This document shows, one piece after another, positions 3,299-63,594 of a stretch of 64,000 nt of DNA. Numbering within the stretch: the stretch's first letter is position 1; every line of letters begins with the position of its first letter. Under the pieces are notes generated by a model, which saw nothing but the letters and a program-made list of their open reading frames with translations, ran no database searches and was not told the DNA's origin. This stretch comes from Nautilus pompilius (taxonomy: Eukaryota; Mollusca; Cephalopoda; Nautilida; Nautilidae): contig JACATO010001426.1 of NCBI GenBank assembly GCA_018389105.1, positions 959,206 through 1,023,205 of the forward strand, given 5' to 3'. The position numbers were made by a program, and so were the translations under genes.

Positions 3299-3436
3299 AC
3301 TGTGAGGAGAATTGGTTTGGTCGTAAATGTGACAAGCAATGTCACTGTAACGGCAGCTGTGACAGAGCTCTAGGTCACTGTACCAGGGGATGTGAGAGCG
3401 GATGGAGCGGAGATTCGTGCCAACGTAGAAATTATG
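3299..3436 (+). CDS. Gene 1 exon: EGF-like module
   Basis: 138 nt, phase 1-1, preceded by ttccttcag and followed by gtttgt. It encodes an EGF-like module of the multiple-EGF (MEGF/laminin-like) type: CEENWFGRKC, then QCHCNGSC, GHCTRGC and GWSGDSC. Its counterpart in gene 2 is at 54238-54375. Confidence 0.85.
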
Positions 3437-6076
3437 GTTTGTACAAATTACCTTTAACCCATTAACCACAAAATCCACTAAAGTAATGTGACATAACAGG
3501 CGTAACTTGTTGAATACCGGTAGTAATATATTTAAAAGGTCTATTCAAGTAAAAACAATGCAGAGAAAGGAAATCTCTTATTTTTAAATCAGATTTTCTT
3601 TATAATGAAATATTTCATATACATCAACTGTATAATTGCAATATTTTAATTTCTAAAAGTATAGAAATCTGTCAACAGTAAGATAGATGGTGGTGGACGG
3701 AGTCTCCCGGTCTTCTTTGAGGAAGAACATCAGTAGCACAATAATGATTTATAATCACAGACTTCAGATCAAAGCAGAAAATTATTTATTTACCTATTTA
3801 TGTGGACATCTTCTACCAACTTGCTTATTAGAAATATGTAGTTAGACAATCTAATTTTCCGATTGTCTATCACCATCATCAGGTTGCAGTCCCGAGAAGA
3901 GCTATTTTTGTTCTGCAATCAGATTAATTTGTCATAGGTGTGTCTAGGTTTTGGTATAGTACAACAGACTGGACCTGGTCTTGAAGCTGCTGCCTGTTGG
4001 TTTCCGAGTCTTTTATATGTATTTTTCAAACCAACGATTTAACCCATCGAACGTCGACTTTCTGCTGGGCTTTCACTAAGGCAATGCTCAGCTGTTATAC
4101 AGTAAAATCATACTGTCTTTATTGTCTAAAAGTTGTAATAAATTGTATTCACCTGGAAATAAATTAAGAAGCAATTTCAACAAAACGTTAAAATAGGAAG
4201 AGACCAAAGATGATAATAAAATGTAACTGGAATACATACCTGGGGATTTCACTCTTGAATACTTTAGTTTGATTGTCTGTTTTTGCAACTGTAACTTCTT
4301 TGGCTGTCCCGGGCGTCTGTTACCATCTTGATACTGAAAACTTTTAATTTACATGAAACTGAATACATTCAGAGAAGTAAAGTCAAATTGAAAATGTTCA
4401 GGTATTTTTCTTAACCATGAAATAGGTAATGAACTTCATTTCTTTGAAACAATTTTTCACGTGAGGATGGAGATGAGGTAGTCTTTGTTGTGATAACTGC
4501 TAAATAGATCAAAATCTGGGTGTAATTGCACGTCGCCACGTATAGAGAAATTATTCCACAGGTTAGACGGAACAAAGTCACTTTGTTCTTGATTTTTAAC
4601 ATAAAAATTAGAAATGTTAAATTATTTAACACCTGATAAAACTCCGGGTAACAGAAAAAAACCAAGGTATTCAGCTGCATTTTGGGAAAAACAAAGCCCA
4701 CACAATGAAGATTTCAGAATCTAATGACATTAAAAACCAAAGACCTCGGCCAGGTTAACATACGAGATGTTCAGACGGTTTGGGGTCTGCAGGAATAGAA
4801 ACTATAAAAGTTTTGTTTACAGCCCGCCTGAATATAAATGGTTGGGGGGGGGGGGTGTTCGTTCCCTAATTCCCTTCCTCTGCAAGAAGGAATCAATCAA
4901 TGATGTACAAAGATATTGATGGGAAATGATGTTGTTCATTCTGAAAATGTAAAAGGAAATAGGACAAGTTCATAGGAAATATTCACAAATATCAACTGTT
5001 ACCTGTTTATAGTCAGACGTAAGAAATGGAATAAATAGAAGACATAAAACTTTTTTGTTGTGAAATCACTCAGCGCTGATAATGTTCACGGTCTGGACAG
5101 ATTCAGAAGTTGAACTGATTGCAGGTTTTGTTGTCATAGCAACGAACAGAGAAGCTTTAGCTTTGTTTCTCATTAATATGTAAATTGTTCTGCAGAGTTT
5201 TCTCCCCTTTCACCGGTGAAGCACCACTCGTAAAATTTATAGTATTTTATTTAGCCTCTTTGACTCTCAACATAAATTTGTAGCGAGGATAAAGTTCCCT
5301 CCTGTGGGGATGCTTACATAAATAAACTTCAGTCAAATTAAGATAAATAGAAAAATGAAATTATTTGTTATTTAAAAGAAAATAATTTTCAATTTCTTTT
5401 CAAATTCATTTTTGTGTTTTTTTTATTTAAACAGAAAACGTAGCCGTGAATAAACCAGCCTGGCAGACTTCTGATTATGTTAATGATCTGCTGTTTAAAA
5501 ATGTCCATAATACAAGTTATCCTGCCCAGCTGGCAGTGGATGGTGATCCAGATGGATATTTTAACCACCTGTCGTGCACTCACACAGCAGCTGTGGATCA
5601 TAATCCAGAGTGGACTGTGGATCTGGGTCCTTACTACACAATCTCCTGGATTCGGATATATAACAGACTGTCATCACGTGAGTTTTCGTGTTGTCACCTT
5701 CACCTGAAATATATAAAACCATACCTGTTTGTAATCCCAGGTGGCGCAGTCAGTCAGCTCGTCTCGTTGTCATGGAAACAAATTTACGTTTTTAAGATTC
5801 GGTGAAAGTCTAGCTGCATATGCACGCTACCAGCAGCTGGAAGTTCAGTTCCATCAACTTTTCCCGCAGCCGTGAAGTTTGAAAATTTACTTTCTTCAGT
5901 TTCTGATGATAAACTTTACCTGACGTGGCCCCTTCAGTCCACAGAATAATTAATTTTAAACCCAAAATATAATTAAATTTTAATTAAGTCATCTTTTAAT
6001 TTTTATATTTGCTGAAAAGCCGATTGGACCTGAATAACCATCTTTCTTTCTACACCGTTATATTATATTATTATTA

Positions 6077-6119
<43 letters not shown>

Positions 6120-9100
6120 ACAACCTCTGCACAACAACTAATTCCAGAGACAGAAACAAAGATGAAGAACTGACCCCTCTGAGGTTGTTTTCCCTCATTT
6201 ATTATGTTTGTTTGTGATGATTTTCAGATAATCGATATCGATTGAAGGGCTTTAAAGTCTATGTAAGTAACAGCAGCAGCAGTTCAGGAGAACTTTGTTT
6301 TGAAGACACATGGAGAAGAACTAAGAGTGGACAGGTGATCATAGACATCCACTGTGAGCCGTCCATCAGGGGTCGATACGTCAAAATAACAAAGACAACA
6401 GAGTTTTTGACTCTGTGTGAAGTTGAAATTATGAGTGAGTAAATATGTTAGACTTCGGTGAGGAATTATTACAATCTGCTCTATTTTCCTGTGTGCATCA
6501 TAAAAACCCAGTTACCTCCCCTTAATTTCTGGTGCTTAAAAAGAACAAGGTCCCTTTTTATAATCTGTTATTTCCTCTACCTTTATTATTGTGCATGTTT
6601 TTGTAGGTCTCCTTATATATTTGTCTACATTGTTGCTGTTATCATAAGATACGGCACTGAAAGGTGGAGAGAGACATAATACATGTCCCCTACCTCAACC
6701 AAATAAGTGGAGGGGACATGTACTTGTTCTCCCTTAATTTTACCCTGCTCTAATGTTGATTAGTAATTTCTGAGAGTAAGTTCATGATCTTTCAGGTCGA
6801 GCTGTTCAGTAGGTAGGAGGTATATTAGGGGAAGGATGAATGTCACATCTGATAGTTCAAACGACAGGTGATTTCAACTTTTCACTCATACTTTCCAAAT
6901 AAAGCAGCGAATAAAAGGGGAGATAATCAATTACATTACCTGTCACTTCATAGACATTACAAAAGAATTAAATATCCAAGGACGAGTGGTTAAGAATCTC
7001 CTTACCTTTGAGACAGTCAGCTCTGGTATCAGTGCAGTGTTTTCTCAGCTTTAATGTGGAAGATCGCTAGTTTTTAGGATTGTTTTAATAAAATTAAAGC
7101 TGTAAACAACATAAAATATGCAGGCCATTGTTGTTGATGAGACTTTTTTTGTTTTAATGTTACCTGCACGAAGTTTAAGAAATGTTTCTCAGTTGATATC
7201 ATGAAGTATTTATCTCAATAAGTAATTGTTTAATCTACAGCAGGAGATAAGGTAAAATCTCCTCAGGTTTAGAATTGTAATTTGATGTAATAAAATGTAA
7301 AATGTTTACCTCAAGTCTCCATTGTCATCTGTGTTAAGTCCAGAACCCAGACAGATGCAGGGAACACAATGGAATGGTGAACCTCAACCTGATACTGGTT
7401 CATCAAATGGAGTTTCTGAGTGATTAACTAGTTTTAACTATTAGAAACTGTTTAACTTATCTGTTGTTTATTAGAACAATCAGTGCAGCAGACTTTAAAT
7501 ACACGGGGTATCATCAGTGGTAAATAGACACCTCAGCATCTACGTCTACTAGTAGACAAACCAATTTGTTTCTGTTTTCTTACAAATTCTTTACACAGAT
7601 CAATACTCACCTGTAGAGTAGGGGGACTGAATTGTGTTGAGGTATCACTGTCTGTGTAATAATATCTATAAATGGATATTAAGACCACATCTACATAGAA
7701 ATATGTGAGAAGTATACATTTTTCCTCATTAAGCAAGAATTGTGAATAAGCTGACAATGAACCTTCACCAAAATTGTTTTGACTTTAAGTGGCCCACAGA
7801 TAATGTGGATCCCTGTCCAGTTGTTAGGAGATTTTATTTAATAATTTAATTTCCATTATAAGTGCAATCAAAATAATAATTCTAATAATAATAAAATATA
7901 TAAATGCTATGTGCTTGATTTTGAGTCCAAATAAGTAAATTTGTGTCAGCCATATAAAAATTAATCTTATAAGTTATGGTATTTCAAAACATTTTATGTC
8001 CACCAGCACAGACTTGATTTGTAGTGTCATCTATTCTGCTGCTGCTGCTGCTGATGATGATCTTTCTTAACTTACATGTTATATTCTCTCTGTTTTGTCA
8101 CAGGATGTAAACCAGGATGGAGAGCTGATTACTGTCATAAAGTAAGGAGATTTTCTGATTAATGACCTTTAGTTAATGTTTAGCTTTGAAAACTGATTTG
8201 GCTTAACAATTAAATATCATTTAATGAAAAGAAAGTGGTAACAGGAAGTGGAAAGATTTTGGTGGGTTGGAGATACTGCTTTTCTTTTTGTTCCTTTTGA
8301 TGGGATTGATAAATTACTTATCTGTATTTGTCACTTCTCAGGATTAAATAAGGATCAAAAATTGTTTGCAGCATCTTTCTATACATTTATGAGATTGTCT
8401 GCTGGTAACTGAGATTACCTCAATACTAAACAAACCGATTATCTACTATGTTCCTTTTATTTAAACTGCTTCTGTGTGTCTGACAATATCACTGCATCAC
8501 CGACAAGATGAAACATGGCTGATACATGGATGGTAATCTTTGAGGAATTACTTGCAGGATTTCTGTGGACTGATAACTGTGGCATCATTTTATGTTAATC
8601 TCCTGTGCTTGGCTATACCATTATACACCAGTGGATGGGCTTCAGTTAACGCAGTGGTCATGTTTGCTCTGCGCTCATCATGAAGTCATTTACTGTGAGA
8701 CTTTTGTCATTTGTAGGTTTGTTCTGTGATATGATTCCACTTATTCTTCTGAACCAACTCTGACAGTCTGTTCATCTCTTTAATCAAATCCTACCACTGA
8801 TTACAGCAGTGCTTCAGACTCCTGAGCCAGAAACATTTGCCTGGAACTTTAACCTGGGTGTCAAATGTTTTTTTTTCATGATTCCAAATCTAGTGTCAGT
8901 GGTTAACTGAGTTATTATGAATGGTTTCTATGTTTCAATTTATTGCATTACTTTGAGGAAACTCATTTCATGAATGATGGTAGAAATGTGAGTTGTCACA
9001 GTTCACCAAATCACCATCCTCAGGTCAGAAAACACAGGGAGTAAGTAGTAGGAGGCCAGAATTGTTACACACATCCATTTCACATTTTGATTTAATGTAC

Positions 9101-12100
9101 CTTTCAAAGATAAATGAAATTTCAATTAATCATTTGATGATCGGAGGACTTTGGATTAGTGCCATCCACATTTTGTAGATTATTGCATCCATCAGCACAA
9201 TAGATTTAATAGTGTAGTAGCATTATATTATGAGCTGCTAGGAACATCAATTATCTCAATCAGCTCATGGTTATGAACCAGAATCTGTTTGTCCAGCCGG
9301 GTACAGACAGTATTTTGCAATCTGTACAATGACTTGGACTGCACCATATATTACAGCAGCACAATATCAAATCATTCACATGTTAATACTGGCTCAAGTT
9401 TAAGACAACTTTGTGAGTGTAGCATCATATCTTTGCAGCCAGGATACAATGCATATACCAGTCTATGAACTGTAGACTTGATGCATATACCATGTAGTTT
9501 CTGGAACTCTGGTGTCAGGTGATGTTACATAATTCAAAGATACGGATGTCAGATAACACTGGACAACAAAATAAAACTTTTTGTCTACCACTGAGCAAAA
9601 TGTGGGTGATCTTAGCTAAATTTTGTGGGGTGATTTCAAATCTGAAGTCAGAATTTGGCTTGGATATCAGGTTCTTGAGATATGCATAAGGAGGAATTTC
9701 ACTACTAACGCTATATTATGACTTATGTTATATGAACTATATAAAGCTTGAACAACAATATTTGGTATTCAAATGTTTAATATGAAACATATTTGCCATG
9801 ATCAGACAACAGATGAATGAGAGAAACTGATAAAAGCAGTATGGAAGATATGGAACGCATTTAACTTACATAGTAGGTACATTCAAAATGTTCAAAAATA
9901 TTTCAGACACTTTTTCTTGCGCTTACATTATGTGAGGTATCAGTCTCCCTTTGGGGGAGCCAACAGTAATCACCCATCATGTTGGGGTTGAATTTGACCT
10001 GATATCTACTTTGCATCACCTTTATGTTTTGGTGGAACCTTTCACCAAACTCATCACTGAAAATCCCTAGATTGGTTGGGAAAAAATCAAGATGCGAATG
10101 CAGAAAATGCATCTTTAAAGGCATCCGGGTCCCCTTTTACTGATACACCATTAGCATGTTTTACACATACTCAGCATAGTTCTCAGCTCTATATTTGCCA
10201 AGAATGTTCTGTACAACTAAAATAGATGCTTCCCATGCTGCAGACTCCAGTGGGTTCATCTTATTTTTGAACTCGTCATCATGCATGACTTCTCGAATTT
10301 CAGGTCACACAAAAGTTCCTTCTTTGAATTTAGCTTCACCTTTGTCAGCACCAAACTTCTCTCTTAGGCAATTGAAGCCATCACCGTCATTATCCATGGC
10401 TTTGACAGATATTTTCATAAGGCCAAGTTTGATATGAAGTGGTGAAAGGTGGACGTTCTGAGGGTCTACCAATGGCATATGTTGTACACTGTACCTGCCA
10501 ACTATAGGTTCCTGTTGCATAGGCCAGTCTTTTCAAGTGTAATGGTTGGCATCATCACTGTTGCTCCAAAGACACAAGAAACATATGTGTTTTGTGTACC
10601 CTAGCTGCAATCTGAGGAGAGAAATAACTTTGAGATCACCACAAATTTTTCATTTATGATCCAAATAACTCATCACTTTCAAAAGGAGTTCCATCAACTC
10701 GTATGTCTCTTTCAAGACAACTTCATGAGCAAGGAACTGAAGGTTTTTGCTTACCATGATGTAACAGCACAGCTTTAAAGCTTAGTTTGATAGATTCTAT
10801 GAATAACCTCCATTCATCAGTCACATGTCATAACTAAAAAATGGGACATCCTAGAAACGGTTTTTAGATTAGATATAAGTATGTGAAATACTACAAAGTA
10901 AGCATAATAGTGTTCCAGTGGCAAAATCATTGTTGTCCAGTGTAATCAATTCTTGTCTTAAATATCCAAACTCCATTTCTGAAAAATTTCACACTTGCAT
11001 CACTAGCTACTGCAATTTTTAAAACAAGAATTAGTAGATAGGTGAGCAGGTGCAATTCAAACAGCCTCATCACCAGAAAAAACAACTGGCCATCCCCCAA
11101 TACAGAATATAATGGAACATTACATAAAACACTTTGATTAATTCATTTTACAGAATCTTTCAAATCATCTTTACTAAATCACAGACATTTTTTTAAAAAA
11201 TCCACAATACATCTGACAACTTTAACTGTCAGGTTCCCATCATGGAATTCATGATTAAGCTTCGATGCAGCTGCTCTTTTTAACTGCTGCCATTTAACCT
11301 TTTACAAAGAAACAGTGTTACATGATGACTTACAACAATTGCTAATTTCCTATTATCCTTTAGTTACACTGATGACTGAATAAAGCTTGATCCATAAAGG
11401 TGTCCATTCCAGTTTCTTTGATGACAATGGATTTCTATTGGAGTGTTGTCTGTGAAGCTGTTTGCCATGAAGCTTGAGGGATCTTTGAGAGTATTTGTCT
11501 TGTCTCTTTCTATATTCAAGGGTTTTGGGACTGGATAAAGGACAAGGAATCCATACAAGTTTCTTGTCTGTCAGAAGAACTAATTAATGGTGTTTACTTT
11601 ACATTCTACAGCCTGTTCATCTGGATATTATGGACTAGACTGTAAATATAAATGTCCCATGGACTGTCAGACTAACAAATGTAATCACATCAGTGGCCAT
11701 TGTACTGAAGGATGTAAACCTGGATTTGTTGGTGACAAATGTTATTCATGTAGGTATTTAGATTTTTAAAAACGTTTTATATTTAAAATAATTAAATGGT
11801 AAATTGCTCTTATAATGTTTATAAAGTAAATTTTAAAATTAATACGATTACATTAAAAGAGAGAGGTAAAAATGTTTATAACAAGCATTTAAATTGTAAG
11901 AAATAATAAAGATGCAGAGTGTAGGAGCTGCTTCCCTGATAACAAGATTATTGAGTATCTGCCATGATCTGTTTACAGCTTGTTCACCTGGGAGCTATGG
12001 AGCCAATTGTACAAGCAGGTGTGAGAATTGTAAAAATGGCAGCTGTAATCACATCAGTGGCCATTGTACTGAGGGATGTATACCTGGATTTGTTGGTGAC

Positions 12101-27100: not shown

Positions 27101-30100
27101 TTAAATAAATAAATGGAAGATCATGGTGCTATCAGTGCTGATTGGTCCATCCACAGAATGTATAAACTGAGAGAAAAACAGGGGAAACCACCGTGAACCT
27201 ACAATCGTCCTCTTCTCTCAGCTCGTTTAAGGAAAGAAGAAACTGAAAAGTATTTTGATATCATCATTAAATTAAAATAATATAAAAGTGCATTTTGAAC
27301 CTATATTACAGATATTATTCCTTTTATCAAGCTTATGTTGTCATTATTATCATCTTTATTATCTGCACTTTACTGCTTTTTTGTGGATTATAACATTGAT
27401 ACATTGATCTTCTGATCATTTTTGTTTTTCCTTTCTAGAGAAATTTTATTGACTTTTCTCTCGATTAATTTAGCATCATCTGCAGCTGCTTTTTTCAGTT
27501 TGTACAGGAGAGGATGATTAAGGGAAATAATTCTGTATATTTTTTTTTACTGGATCACTGTAGCACTGTTAATCAGAGATCACTTCAGAGAATCATAAAA
27601 AAAAATACCAGTAATGATGTTTATTTAGTGCAACTTCTATAAGTAAGGTGAGATAATTAACAAATTGTAATAAGCGAAATGAACTAATGTTGTTATTTTA
27701 AGAATTTAAATGTGAAAGCTTTCTACTTCGAATTGCTATGACTTGAACAGCTTGTGTTGCCTTTACAGGAGCAGTATGTATTTATTCACCAGACCTTGGT
27801 GGAAGCCATGAAGATGTCAGAAACAGAAATAGCAGCCCAAGATTTTGTAAAGTATTATCAGAATTTGTGCTCTGTAAATCCAGCTACTAATCAACTGTAC
27901 ATGGTGGAACAGTTCCAGGTAGTAATACTAGATCTAATTTGAAATGTGTTTTTCACCTGTAACCTGATAACCTGCCTGCCATCATTCCTGGTCCGTAATT
28001 GTGCTATTCTTAGATGTAAATAAAATTCTAATTATTTATGAGTGGTTATGACAAAGAGAAGTGATTTGTTGTATTTTATTGTGGTTGGTCTCTCAGAATT
28101 TGCTGAATTCACACTAAACATCTTAATCTTGGGAAATAATCCCTATAGAAATAAAATAGGTTTTGCTATCCATAATTTCCAGTTATAAGACAAATGGATT
28201 AGATTTCCCATTTCACTTAACTCCATTCATAAATAAGACGAACCAGGTTTTGCCACTCCGCCGACTCAAGATTGGTCACGGGTCACAAACCCCTCTGCTC
28301 ATAGATAACGAGTTCCTACCTTATTTAATGAAAGCCGCTCTTGGAATATTTCCCATAAAGGTTAAACTTTTGCAGCTGTGGTAGATTTTTTCAAGTTATC
28401 GTCAATACGTCTTTCTTTAAGTGTCATATGCAATTTATTCTGTATCATTGATTGATTTTACACATTCGGGAAAAAAAACAATTATTTCATGTTTTTAATC
28501 CTCTGATTTACCATACATTACAAAAACTATTATAGTTATTTTAAAAATAAAAAAAAAAAACGTTATGTACGGTAATAATACAGATTGTCTCCCCTTGACA
28601 GACACGGAGCTTGTTTTTACGCTACAGATAGATAATGTTATAATCATTCTCTGTTCCAGTAATTCAAAAGAAAATGTATTTTTTCTGCATCAATACATTT
28701 ATTTATGTTGGGTGATAGTCAGAGCCAGAGAAGTCACAAATATCATTTATTTTGACACGAGAAATTCTCAAAAAAAATGAGAAGTTACCGAGAAATCCAC
28801 CAAATTAGAAACACTGAGCACTGGATTTAGTTTTTAAAAGGAGGAACGTTGACAGCTTATTCTTCTATTAGAATTAAACTTTTTTCTTTTAAAGACTTCA
28901 GCCTGGTGACAGAGGTAGATTTCTGGCTGTTGATAGGTGAAATTGTTTGTTTTAGCATTTTTGTATTTTCTAATTTGCCTATCTGTCAGTTTTACAGCAG
29001 GTATGAACTTTTATAAACATCTAATTCTAATGTTTCTAGTATTTCAGGGAGAGGCAGTGAAGAACGGTCTGTATCCTTATTTATGTGTTGGTTTGTCAAT
29101 TTCATCTTTTTTTTTCCAGACATTACTTTCTTGGGCTTCATTGCATTTTAAGCATCCTATGCATATTCCACCAGCCGCATCAGAACCAGATAACATAGCC
29201 ATAAACAGGTTCAGTGATGTTTTCCCTGGTAAGCAAAACTTCTTCATTTCTCTTAGTATTTACCCCACCTCACACAAGAATTGCTTTGTTTTGTCTTTTG
29301 TTATTTATAGGAAAGAACAATTAGTGATTAGTAGGTTAAAATAAAATTATATTTTGTTGTTGTTTACTTTCAGATTTCATCATTCATTGCACTGAATTAG
29401 GAATCTATTCTTCTGATATAATTTATTCTTGAAGTGAACAGACTCTTAGATAATCATACAAGAGTTGTTCTTTTAGTGTAGAGACTAGATGCAGGACGAC
29501 TGCAGCACTTTATATGACTTGACGGCAAGCTCATTTGCAGTTTGTCTAACAGATATGGGAAAAGGCAAAGACACAAAAGAGGCATGATAGTGGGTGCTTA
29601 TCTAACAGGTGCCACAATGGCCAATAGCTTTGTTGGTGGGCTACTCCAAGACATCGATCATTTGAGTTTACTAGTAATGGCAAAAAGTGAAGGAAATGTC
29701 TCCTGTGAAGGTAATAGTGGCTGCAAACATAAGAATGGAAGGAGGAGAAAAATGGTTAGACAGGATATTTAAGTCCAACTGTCATCAGACAATAGACCAA
29801 CTGACAGAGACTTTTAATGCTGGGCAATCCCCACCCATTTCTGTTTGTACCTTGCAAAGAATGTTTCAATGAATGGACTTTGGCAGTTGGAGAGCATTGT
29901 GTAAACCACCGATCACAGTTACCAACACAAAAGGTGGTAGAAGGTGAACAGACATTGGTCTAAGAACTACTGGTAGAAAGTGATGTGGTCTCACCACTGA
30001 CATCTCACCCTTTTCCTTTCACAAAAGGTAGAAGACAGATTGGGAGAAAGCCACACAGATAACTTAGCCAATCTTGTATGGTACCAAATTTCTAAGCCTC

Positions 30101-33100
30101 TGGTGGTGGAGTCATGGTTTTGGCCATGTTTTGCTAGCATAACCTAAATCCATTGGCCCATTTAGGAGGCACAATGAATGCAAAAGCTTACCACAGCATA
30201 TTTTCTAATCAAGTGTATCCAGTGATGCTTCTTGAGTACTCTGATGGGTATGCCCACATTGTGCATCCTTGGTTTTAGAAACATTATGGAAATTTCAGGA
30301 ATTTTCCATGGCCAGCACAATTCCTGGATTTAATCCAATTGAGCATTTTTAGGATTAATTGAAAGACATTTGCCATGACGGTCCTCTGCTACCTTGCTCC
30401 ATACAATGCATTTTAATATTAATGACTGAATGGGAAAAATATCCCTCAGACTCCTTCCAAAACCTTCTGGATTCTCTGTAAAATGTGCCTGAACCTATTT
30501 TAAGGTGTAGGTCCTAAGGAAAGTAAGGCTCCTCAAAAGAGGGAAATTTACAATTTCTCATCTTTGTCTGTTCCATTCCCCATCCAGTGTTTGCCATATT
30601 GTAACTGGGAATAAACAACAGATGGTTGGCTGAAATTTTAATTATCAAAGAGAAAATGGTCTGCCGTTTCATAACTGACCCAAACTCTTCCATGAGAATC
30701 TATGTATTAAAACTTAATTTGATTATTTTTAAAACAACTGTCCTTTAGGCCGTCTTTAACTTTTATCTTATATTTTTTATTTTCACTGATTCTGACTCGT
30801 TAAATACAAATTAGATGAATGACTTAGAAAAGACTAAACTTGTGCGTTTGTTTAACACCTGATTTCTACAACAGTCTGCTGTTTGTGGCTGAAAGTGAGC
30901 GGTTCAGTATTTGGTAGAAGGGAAGCTACAGACAGACTTGTAATTTTCAGGAAATGAGAGCAGGGTTTTCCTCACTACCCGTGTGAAAGGAAGAAATGAT
31001 TACATCGAGGCTGTTTTCTTACCTGTGAGTACCTGCTTTTTCATGCTTAACGATCCGATTGGTTCAGAAGCTGCTCTTTGTTGAGAAATGCTATTTTCAA
31101 GTTTATTCATCAGTTAGCCAAATACAAAAAGAAGATTATCTGATAATCCTGCCATCAGGGTATAATGTATTAATCTGCTCGCTCTTCCTTGAGAACTATA
31201 AGGTCTCGTGTGTGTGGATAATTTTAGTTGTCTTCCCAACAGGAATAACGTGCACATTCCTTATAATAGCTTCAATTACATGGGAGATAACTCTACTTGG
31301 TTTGTTTTTAAATGCAATGTCATTTCTGTTACTTAATACAGTGGAATTACGGTATTACGATAATCTTTTGGATATAATCTTAGAAAACTCACTTTAGAAA
31401 TGATTATGCGGTCAAAGTTCATTGATTGCAAAGCAAGAAATGTTTAAAATGGCCATTTCAGGTGAGGTAATATTATCAGAGCTTTGTCTGTGGAACAAGA
31501 GGAAGAATAAAACATTTTAAATGAAAGGGGGAAATGGTGCAAAGTCTGGATTATCAGGATAATGTTTTAAGAGGATTTATGTGGATTAATTTTGGTGTAG
31601 AAAAAGTAAGAAATTTGATTACAACTTGATACTACAAATACAATAAACTGTTTTTTTAATTATGTTGGTTTGTCGTATAAGCTTCACTTAATTTTGATAA
31701 CATTTACTGGATTAATAATTGTTCATCTGAATGGGATCACTGGGACTCTGACTGGGACATGGTGGGGCAGGGCTGGGTTGTGTCAGGAAAGTTGGTAAGT
31801 AGAAAACAAGCACATGACTGTTTTTTGAAAACCACAAGCAGCCAGTTGAAATAAATCTTTTTATCGGAATTCATTAACAGACATAAATACATTAACATGT
31901 TTCTGGAATAAGCTCTGCTCACATCTTATTGCCAGCAGATTATGAAATTCTATTGTTATTATTATTGCTATTATTAATAGTAATAATATTGTTGTTGATG
32001 TTGTTGTCGTGGGCATTAGATGAGAATTGTGATTATTTTGTGATCATAACAACAAAAAATAAGTTTTGAGTTGATTTTTCTAATTTAATTTAATTTATAG
32101 GATTTTGTTAACGAGAAAGAATATTTGATCACCCAGACTCCTCTCCTAGACACTGTGATTGACTTCTGGAGGCTAATTTATGACCAGAGAAGCAGATCAA
32201 TAGTAATGATTGATGACTTCACAGACACAGTAATTTTTGTTTTTTATATTTTATCTAAACAAGTTAAAGATTTTGTTGTTTTCATTTGTTTATTTTATCT
32301 CTGTTTTTATAGTTTCCCTGGTTTGTAAAGCATTATTTTTTTAGACAGTCATATGTCCTGTTGTTGTCTTTCATTTAAGTATAGTAAAAATAATTGTAAT
32401 AGTGAAAGAGTTAAAGGGAGCATATCACCGTGTTTGTCCCACGAACAGAGACACCAGGAGGAATTCTGATGCAGATTTGGCTGAGTCCTGGTGGTTTCTC
32501 TGCTTCGTTCTAACACATTTCCCTGTTTACTCCACATCGGCTTCAACATCCATCTGCTGGTTCTTGTGACCTGCAGCAGAGAAGGAAAACAAAACTAGAG
32601 AAATATAGACGTATGCTACAGTATCTTATTGATCCAGGTCCCCTCAAGACAGAAAAGTAAACCCTAACTCTGTTTCTGTGTTTTCAAGTCTAGCGCCATC
32701 TACTGGCCGAAGAAAACCTCTGTTCAGTATGGACCATTTACAGTAGAAGTGACAGATGTAAGCGACCATGGTCAGTACCTGGTGAGGACATTGAAAGTTA
32801 CCAAGACAGATTTACAAAAGGTAATCTTTTATACATCTGTTTTTGTTTTGAAGCTCGAGATTAGTTAGCATTGCTGTCAAAACAGAAGATGGTCTAATGA
32901 TTTCTGTATCACATTAAGGGATCTAAGTTCACTACATACTGCCAAGACAACAGAAATTTAACTTCAATTCTTTTTATAGCAATTTCACTTTTACCATTTT
33001 GACAAACATTGTAGGCAGCAAGGAGCTGGAAATATCTGTGCTTCCTGGCAGGTAACAGTATACTGATTACTGGTGTCAACTTTGAAAATTGTGAGACCCA

Positions 33101-36100
33101 AATAAGATAATAACTTACAGACATTAAAAACTGGTAAGAGGCTGTGAGTTGAAACAATGCTACAAAAATCAAACAGATATTTTATCACCTGCCTTTATTT
33201 CATTACCTGTATTTAGTCTCGTTAAGTAATTGTACTTCAGCTGAGCTTTAGACAATTTACTTTTCAACTGCCCAAGAGAGATAAGTCAGAGATTGTGAAC
33301 AAAATGCTGCTGCTGGGCATTACTACTACTGTCAGATCTCTTAGATGCCTATTCAAAGTATATACCTGGGTGTTATTGCTGTAAAGTGAAAGCTTTAGCA
33401 GTTTACTGTGGTGAACTAACCGGGTCTGGTAGGTTGTGGTATCGATTCTGGGAGGAATTGGAACCACTGCTGATTGTGATTGATTTCATTGATCACCAAG
33501 GTGTTTATTAGTGGTCCTGCTGGAATAACAATTGGCTGGTTATTGGAGGTTATTTGTAAGTGGTAAAGAATCTTGTGATACTTTTTATTCTGTTTTGAGA
33601 ACTCGAGCCCACTGACCTTGAACTTAAGCAGAAAAAGGGATTTTTGTTTTCTTTCTTTTCTGTTTTTATTTCTGCTTAGAAACACAGGCAGCAGCCCACG
33701 GAAATTAGTGGTTAGCACAACTTGGCACGGCTGGATTTATTTGCATGAAATGTTGTTTCCTTGTTCCTCTCTGTATTTCTGGACTATTAGAGGAGGGAAT
33801 TTCAGATATAAATCACCTTAAAATGGAAACGAGGTTAGTTGGTTATCAGTGGAGGGTTATAGTGATGCTAAATAGGGTAGATAATCTATATTGTTTCACA
33901 AGGTTGATTTTTGTATACAAATATCATCAGTCTGTCAATTACATGGTTATTAGGCTTTTCTTCTTAAAAGTTAAATCTTATTTTACTTTAATAGAAACTT
34001 TATCTGAGAAATTTTGCATCTGATTTCTGCTGATCAGCTCCCAATTTACTAATTAGATATTCAAATCAATTAAGCTGATTATAGAGTCCTGTGTGTTCTT
34101 TCCACAATGTAGCGTATGGTTGGGTTCTCAGTTTTAGCTCAACAGCATTCAAAACTAACTGAGAAATATTTAAATAGACTACAAACCACCTGCTAATTGT
34201 TTACTGGATTCTTTTACTGATTCAGGGCGAAGAAAATTCTTTACAGATAAGACAGTTTGTTTGCTCCTTCTGGCCAAACAAAGACAATGTTCCCTTGTCT
34301 GCAGCATCTCTCTTGGGATTCATTCAAGATGTGCAGGACTGTGAGCGTTCACAAAGAAGCCCCATTGTGGTTCATTGCTCGTAAGTACTCCACTGTCTGA
34401 TTTACCTCCAAGCTCTTTAGATAAAAGAATGCATGATGGTGTTTTATTTACTTGAAATAAGGCTGGACAGAAGTGACTGCTGTATGTGAAGAGACATTAT
34501 CAAAGACATTTGTCATTTGGTTAGATAGATAAATAAAATAACTCCTTGACATTTGCTTCATACAGATGTCTAATAGGCAAGGACCTCAAAATTCATCCGA
34601 AATTCTTATTCATATAGATAACAATTTTAAAAAAATTAAGTATTTTAAATTAGATTGGGATGACTTTGTGCCATATTTAATGACCAGCTGGTGGTTTGGT
34701 TTCTCATATTTTTCTGCTGCAGCTCACAATCTGTAGGGGTCTTGCAAGCTCATCTTCTCCCTGAATGGCTCTCAGAGGGCATCCATTTTTCCATGCATAC
34801 AATCTACAATAACAAACACAGTGTACTTACAAATGTGAACATTTTCATGATTGAATTGGTCTCATATTATGGTTTTAAATATAATATAAATCTGAAAGGA
34901 TTTACACTGTTGGATCACCTAAGTGTGGGGTGGTCACTTCTGATACAAACTTTTCTCATTTCTCACTTGTTTTTTTAAAGCACTATTCATTTTTATTAAA
35001 TACTAAAATGTATACTCAGCCAGACTTTGTTGTCAGCTGTTAATTACCTCCCCTTCATCTTTTTGATGCCCTCTAGGGCAGTTAAAAATGCAGGATTTGC
35101 TGTCTTGACCGTAGTAACAATTATTTGTCTTTCCAGTAATGGAGCTGAAAAAAGTGGTTTGTTCTGTGTGGTTTCTTCTCTGATCAGCAAACTGAAAACA
35201 GAATCGACTGTCAACATAGTGCAGACCATCAAACAGATGCAGCAAAATCATCGGCAGATAATTCCAAATATGGTAAGATTTGCATTTTATTTTCCCTCAA
35301 TTGAATGTTTGTTTATGTAGAATAAAAATGTCAGATATTGGCCCTGTTTCCTCGAGCCATGGTTTTGTGATTGAAGATTGAGATACTGGTGTGGGGGGAG
35401 ATGTCCTGTCAGGTGAGATCATGACTAACCATCTTAGATCACCATTAATTACTGAGGAAAGCAAAAATAAGTGTGTGGCTTCATTGAATATCCATCAAAA
35501 GACTGAATGTTTTTATGGTTGCTCTTGAAGCTTGGGACATCTTGAAACTAAGATGTACGTTCATTCTTCAATGCAAGGTGTAAGGAGAGATTTTTAAGTT
35601 CTCAAATTAATTCCTTGTTCCTTCATAATTATTTGCACCCATACATATTTGTGACTACTTCAGTGAATAGAGACAGTTGCATTTTCGTTGCAATTCCTGT
35701 GATCTTTATATCGGGAGTACTTGAAGTCCTTGTCGCAGTGGTGTCCCCTGGTTATTTCTCAGCTACATGGAAATGAAGTATCATGTGAACTAAAGTTGTA
35801 TCTTTCTTGTGGTCTGATTGATAAGCACATGAAGAAAATGTTCTGTTATTTATCTTTTTGCCCTCTGAGAGCGTAAGGACAGGTGACATTTATTTCAGAA
35901 ACGAACCAACAGCATAGAGATAACTGCACGACTTGAGGAAATATCCACAACTGGATGAAACTGATAGTGTCAGGACAAAAGCCTGGTTTTGTTAAAACTC
36001 CCTGCTGGGAGAGAGTGGTTCTGGTGGATGGGCTGGTGGGAATCCAGTGTTTCTGTGATCTGTCTGTGATAGTCCTCTCATTTCTCAAAAGCAGCTGTAC

Positions 36101-37094
36101 AAATAATTAAAAATGTAAAAAGATGGCAAAGAGCAGAGTTAGATTCCATGGATGAGTAGCAGCTAGAAAGATCTTGCTTAGATGTGATAACAAGAAAACG
36201 TGGCTTCACTAAGCTAAACAACAGGGGAACTAGACTTTGGAATATTGTAGTTGGATGAGAACAGGTGTGAAATATATTGCTCTTGTTGATGATGATATGT
36301 TTGGAGAAAGTATAGGGAAAGTTGCATTTGTTCTTAAGTTGAGCATGGTGGTGGAAATGTGATGGTATGTTGGTTGTTTGCTAGTTTTTTTCATTTTTGA
36401 CAATTAAAAAAATTGATATAAGGTCAAAGTATTCCGAAACAACTAGCGGTTTCATTAGGGCATTGTCTGATAAGTGGTTTGTTGATACTGAAACAATAAT
36501 CATTCAAGTTGCACTGCAATGCTTATATACCTTGCTGGAAAAGAATTGGATGATTTCTTAAAACCAAAGTTTGACCTCAAAAATATCCTGATCTGAACCC
36601 CATTGGACTGGTGAACTAGGTGGAAAGTGTCAATGAGATCCCGGCCAGAAAACATCTTGCAAAAGGAATGAAGGATGCTTAAAAGAGATACCGAACATGA
36701 AGCCAAAAATATGTGCAGCAGTCCTTCACATGAAAGATGGCTGTGTTGATGGTAGAAGCTTGAAGTGAATGGTCTATGTTCTGATGTGTGGTTTTTCTGA
36801 TTGTTCATGGTTTCTTTCCTGCTGGAATAATGCATTTTCATAAACAATAAAGTGTTGAAAAGGCAGATAAGTGTTTTTGTATGATGTGCTCAGAATTTTG
36901 ATCACTTATGTACATCTGTTTTATTATTGTAAATTTAAAGTGAGTAAAGTTAAAAGTGAAAAAGTGAAGGAAAATTTGTTTTTCTTTCATGATATTTACA
37001 TATCTACCAATTTACTTTTTTTTAGAAACAATTTCAGTTTTGCTATAAGTCAGTTCATGAATTCATAGAGAACTTTGGAATGTACAACAACTGA
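3299..37094 (+). CDS. Gene 1: receptor-type tyrosine phosphatase with EGF and fucolectin-like ectodomain (5' partial)
   Basis: Single-pass membrane receptor predicted to remove phosphate from protein tyrosines in the cytoplasm. I assembled 28 exons (listed separately) with canonical splice sites; they give about 1081 codons in the window and end at TGA 37092-37094. The order is EGF, FTP domain (two exons), five EGF modules, transmembrane helix, juxtamembrane linker, PTP domain 1 and PTP domain 2. All intron phases match across the chain if the 38-nt exon at 8104 is skipped. Ectodomain introns are all phase 1, which permits exon shuffling. D1 keeps the KNRY, WPD, HCSAGVGRTG and QTQEQY motifs; D2 has lost key residues. 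The family assignment is firm from these motifs. The ligand and the pathway are unknown. The N-terminus lies outside the window and is inferred from gene 2. Confidence 0.88.
3880..4080 (-). repeat. tRNA-derived SINE-like element, copy 1
   Basis: Read on the minus strand this matches the element at 54785-54985. In that better-preserved copy an A-box-like TAGCTCAGTAGTTGG is followed by a B-box-like AGATTCAAGACC. It lies at the same place in the same intron of both genes, so it was inserted before the duplication. The ends are approximate. Confidence 0.5.
4844..4855. repeat. Poly-G run (12 nt)
   Basis: Uninterrupted G run in the intron before the FTP domain. The matching place in gene 2 (near 56160) has only a short G cluster, so the run is specific to this copy. 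Confidence 0.9.
5435..5677 (+). CDS. Gene 1 exon: FTP (F5/8C-like) domain, N-terminal half
   Basis: 243 nt, phase 1-1, acceptor aaacag, donor GTGAGT. It shows the hallmarks of the eel fucolectin/tachylectin-4 domain: NVAVNKPAWQTS at the start, LAVDGD, then EWTVDLG and ISWIRIYNR. Such domains are beta-sandwich, usually calcium-dependent sugar-binding modules. The classical fucose-contact pattern RxDx4R expected after the NR is not evident, so sugar binding is uncertain. Confidence 0.88.
6061..6117. repeat. (ATT)n microsatellite
   Basis: Imperfect TTA/ATT tract in the intron that splits the FTP domain. A longer tract sits at the same place in gene 2 (57311-57414). Confidence 0.95.
6228..6434 (+). 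CDS. Gene 1 exon: FTP domain, C-terminal half
   Basis: 207 nt, phase 1-1, acceptor ttttcag, donor GTGAGT. It encodes RLKGFKVYVSN, a serine run, a central [14 protein letters not shown] and LTLCEVEIM, which is the typical last strand of F5/8C/FTP domains. It completes the domain begun at 5435. Confidence 0.88.
6680..6722. repeat. Intronic inverted repeat (hairpin), copy 1
   Basis: 12-bp perfect arms at 6680-6691 and 6711-6722 around a 19-nt loop (tacatgtcccct and its complement). The gene 2 counterpart at 57971-58013 has 15-bp perfect arms. Confidence 0.75.
8104..8141 (+). CDS. Gene 1: short exon encoding the end of an EGF module, frame-breaking
   Basis: 38 nt between a good acceptor (tttgtcacag) and a strong donor (GTAAGG), encoding CKPGWRADYCHK. 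It enters in phase 1 and leaves in phase 0. The next exon (11612) needs phase 1, so inclusion would put the EGF modules out of frame and hit a stop; skipping it (6434 to 11612) keeps the frame. It could be a decayed EGF exon, a regulated poison exon or a sequence error. The counterpart at 59564 in gene 2 has lost the donor. Confidence 0.45.
9556..10943 (-). mobile_element. TIR element carrying a decayed gene of a repetitive invertebrate family
   Basis: Perfect 14-bp terminal inverted repeats (ACACTGGACAACAA) lie at 9556-9569 and 10930-10943. If the TIR is taken as starting at CACTGG, both sides are flanked by TAA, a possible 3-bp target site duplication. Between them, on the minus strand, runs a broken coding region. 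The corresponding place in gene 2 lacks the element, so it was probably inserted after the duplication. A 3-bp duplication and CACTG ends resemble EnSpm/CACTA or Harbinger-type elements, but I see no recognised transposase. Confidence 0.55.
9903..10860 (-). pseudogene. Broken copy of a dispersed uncharacterised invertebrate gene family
   Basis: Minus-strand translation, spread over two frames and interrupted by stops, shows in order CDDEWRLFIESIKLSFKAVL, PLHIKLGLMKISVKAM, a link with NPLESAAWEA, then HSHLDFFPTNLG, GERFHQNI and MMGDYCW. I recognise this order from a large family of unnamed proteins repeated in cnidarian and arthropod genomes (HSHLDFFPENLG, GERFHQD, DYCW). The function is unknown. 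Its position between TIRs suggests it travels with a DNA transposon. Confidence 0.6.
11612..11749 (+). CDS. Gene 1 exon: EGF module 1 of the amplified block
   Basis: 138 nt, phase 1-1, acceptor ctacag, donor GTAGGT. It encodes an 8-cysteine EGF module ([34 protein letters not shown]). Near-identical to 62854-62991 in gene 2. Confidence 0.88.
11979..12113 (+). CDS. Gene 1 exon: EGF module 2
   Basis: 135 nt, phase 1-1, acceptor tttacag, donor GTAGGT. It encodes [27 protein letters not shown] and GFVGDKC. The protein sequence is identical to the next exon. Confidence 0.9.
12361..12495 (+). CDS. Gene 1 exon: EGF module 3
   Basis: 135 nt, phase 1-1. The only difference I see from exon 11979-12113 is one silent base (agt/agc). 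The first ~190 bp of the following intron also match the previous intron almost exactly, so this is a recent tandem duplication of exon plus intron. Confidence 0.9.
12744..12878 (+). CDS. Gene 1 exon: EGF module 4
   Basis: 135 nt, phase 1-1. Same module with CSPGIYGANC and GDCRDGC replacing GHCTEGC, ending GDKCDH. Donor GTAGGT. Its gene 2 counterpart (63229-63357) is broken. Confidence 0.9.
13123..13257 (+). CDS. Gene 1 exon: EGF module 5, last before the membrane
   Basis: 135 nt, phase 1-1. It encodes [17 protein letters not shown] and GFVGYRCNK. It ends in phase 1 and joins the transmembrane exon at 17042 in frame. Confidence 0.9.
13416..13532 (+). pseudogene. Relic EGF exon
   Basis: Recognisable EGF pieces in two frames: CPSGSFGQEC, then after a frameshift CDHITGSCDEGC and GFVDDKC. 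The donor (GTATGT after phase 1) is intact, but the acceptor position reads ttacat instead of ttacag and the middle cysteines are missing. It cannot be spliced in and is skipped by the frame-consistent model. An even more eroded relative lies at 63870-64000. Confidence 0.7.
15760..16045 (-). repeat. tRNA-derived SINE-like element B
   Basis: On the minus strand an A-box-like stretch (16012-16038) precedes a B-box-like AGTTCAAATCC (15986-15996), followed by a tail that shares a block around 'cagatgnGGAGGAAG' with 60945-61205. The open frame at 15763-15966 is part of this repeat, not a gene. Ends are approximate. Confidence 0.5.
17042..17144 (+). CDS. Gene 1 exon: transmembrane helix
   Basis: 103 nt, phase 1 to 2, acceptor tttttttcag, donor gtaaca. 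It encodes a short stalk (AVPNLNKDVIVK), a hydrophobic helix IIGPVLVIIGLLIAVGLILL and a W-R stop-transfer boundary. The next exon begins with lysines, which sets type I topology: EGF/FTP outside, PTP inside. Confidence 0.88.
17449..17473. repeat. (CAT)n microsatellite
   Basis: About eight CAT units in the intron after the transmembrane exon. Confidence 0.9.
17749..17831 (+). CDS. Gene 1 exon: cytoplasmic juxtamembrane linker
   Basis: 83 nt, phase 2 to 1, acceptor tcctccag. It encodes RKKSSEVSGIKATK followed by the acidic EDDDFNGTIPLKP. The basic start next to the helix supports the topology. Confidence 0.82.
18971..19098 (+). CDS. Gene 1 exon: linker and N-terminal helices before PTP D1
   Basis: 128 nt, phase 1 to 0, acceptor ttgttttcag. 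It begins with acidic SDDENMDENIYSND, which contains a possible phosphotyrosine site (ENIY), and ends with VQKFEDYFLKKN and FSTEFE. This is the amphipathic helix pair that precedes D1 in receptor PTPs (the wedge region). Confidence 0.85.
20073..20160 (+). CDS. Gene 1 exon: PTP D1 start (KNRY loop)
   Basis: 88 nt, phase 0 to 1. It encodes NLPKGLLAPCKAAL, then NLVKNRYKNMYA, the phosphotyrosine recognition loop (KNRY) found in active PTP domains. Acceptor aaccag, donor GTAAGT. Confidence 0.88.
20511..20570. repeat. (ATT)n microsatellite
   Basis: Imperfect TTA/ATT tract just upstream of the exon at 20634. Confidence 0.9.
20634..20704 (+). CDS. Gene 1 exon: PTP D1 (YINA strand)
   Basis: 71 nt, phase 1 to 0. 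It encodes DHSRVVLDTSDGFSDYINAC, the DxxRVxL and DYINA motifs of PTP domains. Donor GTGAGT. Confidence 0.88.
22729..22765 (+). CDS. Gene 1 exon: PTP D1 (short)
   Basis: 37 nt, phase 0 to 1, acceptor atttcag, donor GTAAGA. It encodes GYYKPRHYIASQ, the IA(S/T)Q motif. It is too short to be found by open-frame search and is needed to keep frame. Confidence 0.86.
23670..23767 (+). CDS. Gene 1 exon: PTP D1 (DFWRMIW)
   Basis: 98 nt, phase 1 to 0. It encodes ATKANIIDFWRMIWQ and KIVMVTHLFESGK, both classic PTP motifs. Donor GTGAGT. Confidence 0.88.
23809..23869. repeat. Palindromic MITE-like element
   Basis: Perfect 15-bp arms at 23809-23823 and 23855-23869 (TAATACCTCACTTAT and complement) around a 31-nt spacer. 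The arms begin and end with TA and resemble pogo/Tigger-type termini (ATACCTC). It has no coding content. Confidence 0.55.
24452..24574 (+). CDS. Gene 1 exon: PTP D1 (KCxKYWP)
   Basis: 123 nt, phase 0-0, acceptor tgtttcag, donor GTAGGT. It encodes QKCLKYWPDVGQENTYG and a following beta strand. KC.(R/K)YWP is the standard PTP motif. Confidence 0.88.
26296..26453 (+). CDS. Gene 1 exon: PTP D1 WPD loop and catalytic cysteine
   Basis: 158 nt, phase 0 to 2. It encodes QFHFIAWPDHDVP: the WPD loop is complete, with the general acid Asp at 26350-26352. It ends VVVHC with the nucleophilic Cys codon at 26449-26451. The P-loop is split by the intron. Confidence 0.92.
26922..27060 (+). CDS. Gene 1 exon: PTP D1 P-loop arginine
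   Basis: 139 nt, phase 2 to 0. Joined to the previous exon it gives HCSAGVGRTG, with the phosphate-binding Arg at 26935-26937. It then encodes FILVDYLLDHI and RNQRVQFVQTQ, where the Q-loop glutamine region begins. This supports D1 being catalytically active. Confidence 0.92.
27769..27918 (+). CDS. Gene 1 exon: end of PTP D1
   Basis: 150 nt, phase 0-0, acceptor ctttacag. It encodes EQYVFIHQTLVEAM, the QY.F.H motif that closes PTP domains, then a linker to D2 (MVEQFQ). Confidence 0.88.
29120..29228 (+). CDS. Gene 1 exon: start of PTP D2
   Basis: 109 nt, phase 0 to 1, acceptor tttttttccag, donor GTAAGC. It encodes the linker and INRFSDVFP, the degenerate counterpart of the KNRY loop (Lys replaced by Ile, Tyr by Phe). 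Confidence 0.82.
29555..30540 (+). pseudogene. Tc1/mariner-type transposase relic
   Basis: The conceptual product begins MGKGKDTK, then IVGAYLTGAT, a helix-turn-helix-like region, FKSNCHQTIDQLTETFNAG, later GGGVMV, and near the end WPAQ with FNPIEHF (30309-30355). These are the landmarks of Tc1-like transposases. Several frameshifts and stops break it. It lies in an intron of gene 1 in the same orientation. I could not define terminal repeats. Confidence 0.72.
30951..31024 (+). CDS. Gene 1 exon: PTP D2 (YIEA strand)
   Basis: 74 nt, phase 1 to 0, donor GTGAGT. It encodes ESRVFLTTRVKGRNDYIEAV, the D2 counterpart of the DYINA segment. Confidence 0.85.
32101..32229 (+). CDS. Gene 1 exon: PTP D2 (TQTPL, DFW)
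   Basis: 129 nt, phase 0-0, acceptor aatttatag, donor gtaatt. It encodes YLITQTPLLDTVIDFWRLIY and SIVMIDDF, typical of PTP domains. Confidence 0.86.
32689..32820 (+). CDS. Gene 1 exon: PTP D2 (YWP strand)
   Basis: 132 nt, phase 0-0, acceptor ttttcaag, donor gtaatc. It encodes SSAIYWPKKTSVQYGPFTVE and a strand ending TKTDLQK. The KC before YWP is lost, which is common in D2 domains. Confidence 0.84.
34226..34380 (+). CDS. Gene 1 exon: PTP D2 degenerate WPD loop
   Basis: 155 nt, phase 0 to 2, donor GTAAGT. It encodes RQFVCSFWPNKDNVP: the general acid Asp is Asn (34277-34279). It ends PIVVHC at the catalytic loop. The loss of the acid argues for a non-catalytic D2. Confidence 0.88.
35137..35272 (+). 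CDS. Gene 1 exon: PTP D2 degenerate P-loop
   Basis: 136 nt, phase 2 to 0, acceptor ttccag. Joined to the previous exon it gives HCSNGAEKSG; the catalytic Arg is Lys (35150-35152). Cys is kept. It then encodes VQTIKQMQQNHRQIIPN, the D2 version of the Q-loop helix. Confidence 0.88.
36500..36850 (+). pseudogene. Possible mariner/Tc1-type transposase C-terminal relic
   Basis: A fragment reads YPDLNPIGLVN near 36585-36620 and, in another frame, PKICAAVLHMKDGC near 36690-36750. These resemble the PDLNPIE(L/H)VW motif and the C-terminal RVCAAVI..KGG of these transposases. Stops and frameshifts abound. It lies in the last intron of gene 1. Confidence 0.4.
37026..37094 (+). CDS. Gene 1 terminal exon
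   Basis: 69 nt, phase 0, acceptor tttttttttag. It encodes QFQFCYKSVHEFIENFGMY, matching the QF.FCY...EF helix that ends PTP domains, then TGA at 37092-37094. Confidence 0.86.
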   Translation, partial: KQFQFCYKSVHEFIENFGMYNN

Positions 37095-55800: not shown

Positions 55801-57353
55801 TTTTTATTTCTTTTTTGTCACCTTCTCTTGTTTTATTGTTCTTTCTTATTCTTATTTAGTTCAGACTGAGATCCAAACATTCAAACCAAACGATGTTTGG
55901 ACAGTTAAAAATCTCTCATTATCAGTCTTTTTAACATCAGTCACATGTCTGAAAATTGTACTTCTGGGGAACAGAAAACCTGAGGTAATCAACTGCATTC
56001 TTGGAGAAACAGAGCCGACAGAATGGAGATTTCAGAGTCCAAATGTCATTAAAAAACAAAGTCCTCATTCAAGTTAACATACAAGATGTTCAGATGGTTT
56101 GTGGTTTGCACAAGTAGAAACTATAAATGCCTTGTTTACAGCCCGTTCGAATATATATGGTGGAAGGGGCAGTGTTCGTCCCCTATTTCCTTTCCTCTGA
56201 TCAATCATTGATGGTCTGATGTACAAAGATACTGATGGGAGACGATGCTGTTCGCTGTTTTATCAGCTGTTACCTGTTTGTGGTCAGACATAAGAACTGA
56301 GAATAAATAGAAGACATGAAACTTTGTTGTTGGGAAATCATTCAGCACTGATGATGTTCCTGATCTGGATAGATTCAGGTTAACTGATTGCTGGTTTTGT
56401 TGTCATAGCACTGATCAGGGTAGCTTCAGATTTTGTTTCTCATTAATATTCAAAACTGTTCCATGGAGTTTTCTCCCCTTCGATGTGTTGAAACACCCTT
56501 TGGAGATATATATATTTTAAACTCGTAGAATATCAACATAAACTTGTATCAGAAGTAATAGCAAGGATAAAGTTCCTTTCTGTGGAGTTGTTTACATAAT
56601 AAAGTTCAGTAAAGTTATGACATACAGAAAATGAAATTTGTTATTTAAAAAAATTTCATTTCATTTCTATTAATTTCCTTATTTTTGAGAACAGAAAACG
56701 TAGCCGTGAATAAATCAGCCTGGCAGACTTCTGATTATGTTAATGATCTGCTGTTTAAAAATGTCCGTAATACAAGTTATCCTGCCCAGCTGGCAGTGGA
56801 TGGTGATCCAGATGGATATTTTAACCACCTCTCATGTGCTCACACAGCAGCTGGGGATTCTAATCCAGAGTGGACTGTGGATCTGGGTTGTTGCTTCACA
56901 ATCTCCTGGATACGGATATATAACAGACTGTCACGTGAGTCTTCTCATTCAACCTTTACCTGAAATATTTAACACCACACCTGTTTTTTACTCCCAGGTG
57001 GCTCAGTCAGTCAGCTTGTCTCGTTGTCATGGAAACAAATTACGTTTTAAGATTCGTGTGAAAGTCTAGCTGCATATGCACGCTACCAGCAGCTGCAAGT
57101 TCAGTTCCATCAACTTTTCCCGCAGCCGTGAAGTTTGAAAATTACTTTCTTCAGTTTCTGATGATAAACTTTACCTGATGTGGCCCCTTCAGTCAGTAGA
57201 ATAATTAATTTTTAACCCCAAATATAATTACATTTGAATAAGTCACCTTTTTATTATCATAATATTTGATGAAAAGTTTGGACCAGAATAACCATATTTT
57301 TTCTTCACCATTATTATTATTATTATTATCATTATTATTATTATATATTATTA

Positions 57354-57399
<46 letters not shown>

Positions 57400-63357: not shown

Positions 63358-63594
63358 GTAGGTATTTAGATTTTATTAAATGTTTAAAATGTAAACTAAT
63401 TAAATGGTAAAATTTATTGTTGTTTTCTTTGCTCTTATAATGTTTATAAAGTAAAATTTAAAATTGGATTACATTGAAAGAGAGGTAAAATTATTGATAT
63501 CAAGCATTTAAATTGTAAGAAATAATAATGATGTAGAGTGTAGAACCGTTCTTGATCAGAAGATTTTTGAGTATTTGTCATCAACTGTTTACAG

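Follow-up and report, generated by a model that had tools for sequence, protein, structure and literature searches.

Receptor protein tyrosine phosphatases (PTPs) of the R2B group (PTPRK, PTPRM, PTPRT) bear MAM, Ig and FN3 ectodomains. Well-defined ligands are few for human receptor PTPs, and we know of none among these proteins with an F-type lectin or MEGF-like EGF domain. In MEGF10, PEAR1 and Draper, the signalling tail is short and contains no enzyme domain. Byrum and colleagues have reportedly described a lectin-bearing receptor PTP in sea urchin, and receptor PTPs bearing EGF and F5/8C domains are annotated in mollusc genomes. Among the matches listed in our literature search, no title or abstract opening combined an F-type lectin/FTP domain and EGF domains with a receptor PTP. 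Here we analyzed a stretch of 64,000 bases from Nautilus pompilius (contig JACATO010001426.1, positions 959,206–1,023,205 of the forward strand, assembly GCA_018389105.1; 36.7% G+C), referred to below as the window, which contains a putative receptor PTP gene with such an ectodomain. The receptor PTP is of a known kind, and its predicted ectodomain is a variant not known from human receptor PTPs.

In the available part of one study, PTPRK was found to have an active first PTP domain (D1) and an inactive second one (D2), which recruits Afadin for D1 (PMC9640194), and an excerpt of another describes PTP-sigma as switched by glycans via mono- or oligomerisation (PMC8197235). As far as the excerpts go, receptor PTPs annotated as alpha-, mu-, kappa-, eta-, epsilon- and T-like occur in Crassostrea virginica hemocyte comparisons, where EGF-like proteins are also placed in the PTP class (PMC13070813), and a figure legend on expanded families of Gigantopelta aegis has MEGF and fucolectin as expanded, with PTPRK among its abbreviations (PMC7895826). 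The oyster and Gigantopelta receptors may include some of FTP-EGF-PTP build; neither passage gives a domain order. The accessible portion of PMC10815196 names no EGF or invertebrate ectodomain.

The gene occupies 3299–37094 on the plus strand. Its 26 exons, located by frame reading, splice scanning and phase-guided search, gave a single open frame of 1082 residues (the first of which relies on one assumed upstream base) with the stop codon at 37092–37094. The predicted domain order is EGF, F-type lectin/FTP, five MEGF/PEAR1-like EGFs, a transmembrane helix, PTP D1 and PTP D2, and these parts very probably belong to one gene. All 25 exon junctions are in phase and the sole stop is the terminal one. 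In a Pfam search of the spliced protein, Y_phosphatase matched in two stretches (4.3e-134), together with F5_F8_type_C_2 (2.6e-14) and F5_F8_type_C (4.2e-11); the remaining rows were phosphatase-superfamily cross-matches over D1 and an EGF model. The latter, EGF_PEAR1L (PF23301), scored 23.1 bits on the whole protein, below its cut-off of 37.5, and 47.8 bits in four stretches on the five-EGF block alone. The original prediction of a receptor PTP gene between these positions, with exons chaining in phase, is therefore confirmed, as are its PTP and F5/8C-type domains by profile; its EGF modules were recovered by profile on the block and fell short on the whole protein. It had counted 28 exons, two more than our model, and its order of FTP domain, EGFs, transmembrane helix and two PTP domains stands with six EGF modules in place of five, since the exon 1 EGF (3299) lies ahead of the FTP domain.

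It should be noted that the introns are GT-AG by construction, as the borders were chosen so, and that phase alone is not independent evidence because exons were picked for fit during model building. Further support for the predicted gene is provided by profile and sequence matches running through many junctions and by the mirrored order of D1 and D2. We scored splice sites with a simple ad hoc scheme and expressed them as percentiles of all AGs or all GTs of the window. At least the 85th percentile was reached by 23 of the 26 acceptors and at least the 77th by all 25 donors, that of exon 22 being the weakest. When aligned with D2 domains of receptor PTPs, the exon 22/23 junction leaves a 3-residue gap, so this border may be slightly off. 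A donor of exon 1 at 3424 was dropped for that at 3436, which scored higher and is kept (54375) in a second copy of the ectodomain described below, where the discarded position reads AT (54363); because the preferred donor is kept, this AT was not scored as decay. An earlier model with the other donor had 1078 residues, and it was the one used for the whole-protein Pfam search and for hydropathy. As a control for chance, a strict EGF motif was found four times in the six frames of the window and not once in any of 20 first-order Markov draws. A loose PTP signature motif occurred twice in the window and at least once in 7 of the 20 draws (twice in 2 of these), and is therefore uninformative by itself. 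The case for the putative receptor gene is carried by the profile matches.

The intracellular part matched RPTP-S best among solved chains (1.5e-126; both printed alignments use D1 of the window, one against each RPTP-S PTP domain), and the PTPR zeta and gamma chains aligned in a single stretch across both PTP domains. Type IIa receptors (LAR, PTP-sigma, PTP-delta) share the tandem PTP arrangement and their solved structures are among the best matches, whereas their ectodomain consists of Ig and FN3 domains and their ligands are glycosaminoglycan, according to the excerpts available. D1 aligned end to end with D1 of RPTP-S (223 bits), retaining WPD and HCSAGVGRTG. Its KNRY, WPDHDVP, VHCSAGVGRTG and FVQTQ motifs are intact, including the WPD loop and the HCX5R signature, and it should therefore be active. 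In D2 the corresponding motifs read SFWPNKDNVP and VHCSNGAEKSG; with Asn in place of the general acid and Lys in place of the signature Arg, D2 should be inactive and is very probably a pseudophosphatase. We hold the combined prediction, an active D1 followed by a dead D2, with considerable confidence. Both features, and the type I receptor build, would be shared with the R2B receptors. Among the single-domain chains listed at E up to 1e-60, D1 scored highest with PTPRM (258 bits), PTPRK (255) and PTPRT (253), versus 221 for PTPRU, 218 for 2nv5 and 210 for PTPRA. In contrast, within the best 60 of 242 matches of D2, the top one was PTPRA D2 (1p15, 155 bits), RPTP-S D2 reached 127.5 bits and no R2B D2 was recognized. 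Searching prokaryote genome contigs for D1 yielded 15 pattern matches, none of which was confirmed.

The two PTP domains also resemble each other in gene structure. The exons of D1 have phases 0-1, 1-0, 0-1, 1-0, 0-0, 0-2, 2-0 and 0-0, and those of D2 0-1, 1-0, 0-0, 0-0, 0-2, 2-0 and 0-end. Each of the six D2-internal introns has a D1 counterpart of the same phase and position (position being read from translation and alignments). These introns lie ahead of the SRV motif, behind YINACYVD/YIEAVFLP, ahead of the YWP motif, ahead of QGEE/GEEN, within the Ser codon that follows VVHC, and ahead of EQYVF/KQFQF. An additional intron of D1 falls within the ASQG segment. The correspondence is only partly independent support, because the resemblance of D1 and D2 guided some borders, namely those of exons 17 and 25 and the 22/23 junction. 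A candidate for the D2 signature exon around 34737 (read as NGSQRASIF) was replaced by that at 35137–35272, which has an acceptor, a donor and the phase.

In the ectodomain, the match to EGF_PEAR1L is a feature shared with MEGF10, PEAR1 and Draper, which differ in that the cytoplasmic part of the Nautilus receptor is a tandem PTP. EGF_laminin scored 33.8 on the five-EGF block (cut-off 21), with each single stretch below the cut-off. The exon 1 module alone stayed under the cut-off of every Pfam model (best DSL, 20.2 versus 24.2) and was named EGF by its cysteine pattern and likeness to other EGFs. An EMI domain gave no Pfam match on the spliced protein, whose very N-terminus is outside the window. 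Exons 5–8 form four tandem units (11951–13394) spaced by 382, 383 and 379 bases. In an ungapped comparison, the first two units were 99% identical over 300 bases including intron, with one synonymous change in the 44 codons of exons 5 and 6, and the other two were 69 and 65% identical. A further candidate for a membrane-proximal EGF, at 13409–13540, was dropped as it requires two frames and lacks an acceptor; it is one of two EGF relics, the other being at about 8100. These near-identical units and relics suggest that EGF exons have been gained and lost, or that an assembly artefact accounts for part of the pattern.

The best matches of the FTP domain among 7 solved sequences at E up to 0.1 (phmmer) were FBP32 of striped bass (3cqo, 1.5e-18) and eel agglutinin (1k12, 7.1e-13). 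The domain shares with these F-type lectins the His-Arg-Arg triad (H50/R78/R86, facing H52/R79/R86 of eel agglutinin), the cation motif h2DGx (AVDGD) and four cysteines (48, 105, 124 and 145), which would be consistent with the pair of long-range disulfide bonds in eel agglutinin. In contrast to these lectins, it sits in a membrane receptor. Other details weigh against a fucose-binding site: the motif HX24RXDX4(R/K) was found in neither strict nor relaxed form in this domain, Ser faces Asp81 of eel agglutinin, and Ser-His faces its Cys82-Cys83. Counted in the same way, the triad spacing is 26 residues from H52 to R79 in eel agglutinin versus 27 here. In the part of the source available, where this fucose motif is defined, departures from it may mean altered specificity or lost binding, oyster isoforms vary, some with the triad and some without, and oyster bindins are F-type lectins (PMC5712786). 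Since the triad and cation motif are kept, the fucose motif fails and such departures may alter or abolish binding, sugar binding by the putative lectin domain is possible.

Taken together, the locus is probably best explained as one gene for an FTP-EGF type I receptor PTP with a ligand-controlled D1. The FTP domain would bind a glycan or glycoprotein, whether on another cell, in the matrix or on a microbe, and the EGF stalk would determine its reach from the membrane. Ligand binding might gather or separate receptors and so change the site and strength of tyrosine dephosphorylation by D1, and D2 might hold or recruit substrates, as PTPRK D2 does with Afadin. That a glycan is the physiological ligand we propose only tentatively. 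A somewhat stronger contender, still short of an even chance, is that the same receptor has a protein or homophilic ligand, its FTP domain being an adhesive jelly roll like F5/8C and the whole an adhesion phosphatase that works like PTPRK, PTPRM and PTPRT. The failed fucose motif and the closeness of D1 to these three receptors favor a protein ligand, whereas the retained basic triad, cation motif and cysteines, and the fact that both top solved structures are fucose lectins, speak for a glycan. In addition, with E limited to 0.01, Pfam gave no MAM, Ig or FN3 match in the ectodomain within the window, where the R2B receptors have them and the Nautilus receptor has FTP and EGF modules.

A more far-reaching proposal, which we consider rather doubtful, is a family of glycan-gated phosphatase receptors for recognition of self or microbes, in which sugar binding would directly switch dephosphorylation. 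An equally doubtful part of it is that F-type lectin ectodomains on MEGF-like stalks were diversified through tandem duplication together with EGF-exon gain and loss. Signs of tandem duplication and EGF-exon turnover would be in keeping with a recognition receptor that faces changing demands. The original prediction linked a lectin-type ectodomain to tyrosine dephosphorylation, and the anatomy can fairly be read in that way; glycan binding, with the fucose motif missing, is conjectural, and for the suggested role in immunity or self-recognition we found no evidence within the window. For both ligand identity and an immune role, we infer rather than observe. A lectin and EGF ectodomain on a tyrosine phosphatase would be an unusual pairing for receptor PTPs, with any function a matter of conjecture from sequence, and it offers a testable case of a lectin-type domain wired to a phosphatase. 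Its significance would be greatest if the ectodomain does bind glycans.

Several points count against joining all exons into one complete gene. The 5' end is open and lies outside the window; no start codon or signal peptide is present within it, and a crude scan of 1–3250 gave no signal-peptide exon. The acceptors of exons 14, 17 and 18 are weaker (percentiles 34, 55 and 75), and two long introns, of 5.2 kb (6435–11611) and 3.8 kb (13258–17041, between the last EGF and the transmembrane exon), are bridged by phase and order only. The second of these introns, the decayed EGF exon behind the last good EGF and a second FTP-EGF copy with no PTP exons in the window (though cut by the window end) would suit two adjoining genes, i.e., a MEGF/Draper-like FTP-EGF gene at 3.3–13.3 kb and a receptor PTP gene at 17–37 kb whose own ectodomain is elsewhere or lacking. 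However, exons 1–8 are all of phase 1-1, so that the last EGF exon exits in the phase in which the transmembrane exon is entered, and the sole strongly hydrophobic stretch of the chain, above 1.6 on the Kyte-Doolittle scale at residues 424–456 of the 1078-residue model and taken as a single transmembrane helix, is encoded in the exon leading into the PTP part. By eye, no further ectodomain exon was recognized at 13.3–17 kb. Two separate genes are thus improbable. The features of the preferred single-gene model, and two outside it, are listed in the table.

Table. Exons of the predicted receptor PTP gene and related features in the window
Feature	Position	Strand	Remark
Exon 1	3299..3436	+	EGF module N-terminal to FTP domain; phase 1 in, 1 out
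Exon 2	5435..5677	+	F-type lectin/FTP domain, first half
Exon 3	6228..6434	+	F-type lectin/FTP domain, second half
Exon 4	11612..11749	+	MEGF/PEAR1-like EGF
Exon 5	11979..12113	+	EGF, in tandem-unit array with spacing of ~382 nt
Exon 6	12361..12495	+	EGF, unit 99% identical to exon 5 unit over 300 nt
Exon 7	12744..12878	+	EGF
Exon 8	13123..13257	+	EGF
Exon 9	17042..17144	+	Predicted transmembrane helix
Exon 10	17749..17831	+	Juxtamembrane
Exon 11	18971..19098	+	Juxtamembrane and start of PTP region
Exon 12	20073..20160	+	PTP D1, KNRY motif
Exon 13	20634..20704	+	PTP D1
Exon 14	22729..22765	+	PTP D1, 37 nt, weak acceptor
Exon 15	23670..23767	+	PTP D1
Exon 16	24452..24574	+	PTP D1, KYWP motif
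Exon 17	26296..26453	+	PTP D1, WPD loop and HC of signature
Exon 18	26922..27060	+	PTP D1, remaining signature SAGVGRTG and VQTQ
Exon 19	27769..27918	+	D1 end and linker to D2
Exon 20	29120..29228	+	PTP D2 start
Exon 21	30951..31024	+	PTP D2
Exon 22	32101..32229	+	PTP D2
Exon 23	32689..32820	+	PTP D2, IYWP
Exon 24	34226..34380	+	PTP D2, WPN replacing WPD, HC of signature
Exon 25	35137..35272	+	PTP D2, NGAEKSG with Lys for the signature Arg
Exon 26	37026..37094	+	D2 end and stop codon
Relic EGF exon, outside model	13409..13540	+	Halves in different frames, start without AG acceptor
Second ectodomain copy (EGF, FTP, EGFs), apparently decayed	54138..63745	+	Gapped pieces 72–88% identical

The second copy was detected by a blast comparison of 1–37500 with 37501–64000, and a repeat search gave identities of 88–97% for its ungapped stretches. 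It has a frame break near 57565 in FTP exon 2, broken EGFs at 63.2 and 63.6 kb, and an EGF at 59.8 kb whose best donor is in phase 0; as read from these defects, the copy is decayed. Over 221 codons in four shared segments, the two copies differ by 14 synonymous and 26 nonsynonymous changes, with substitution rates of 0.112 at synonymous (dS) and 0.051 at nonsynonymous (dN) sites. By segment, dS/dN was 0.414/0.041 for the exon 1 EGF, 0.096/0.068 for the first half of the FTP domain, 0.065/0.039 for the second half and 0/0.047 for the exon 4 EGF. That the receptor gene is itself a pseudogene or a decaying family member, as the breaks in its neighbor, the relic at 13409 and a dN that approaches or exceeds dS in certain segments (the region of FTP exon 2, and exon 4) might suggest, is the least probable alternative, given 26 exons with no stop or frameshift, intact D1 motifs and an overall dS above dN, which indicates mild constraint although the changes are few and partly shared with the decayed copy.

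Four short collinear matches (E 1e-14 to 0.003) were found between 39–484 and 49908–50368. They suggest that an EGF and an FTP-like unit also lie just left of the window for the receptor gene, and its true ectodomain is therefore probably longer than modelled. Upstream of the second copy we noted an EGF-like exon (46189–46315) and a two-exon FTP-like unit (48190–48324 and 49629–49802); the latter was named by reading only and matched nothing in Pfam, nor in PDB with E limited to 5. Rfam at its gathering threshold gave no matches in the window. Within the second copy, two EGF exons at 59777–60731, one with its best donor in another phase, have no counterpart found in the first copy. Finally, long overlapping frames at 51647–53320, with a weak RNase H match below cut-off (E 0.013), resemble a retroelement remnant that sits between matched parts of the duplication.
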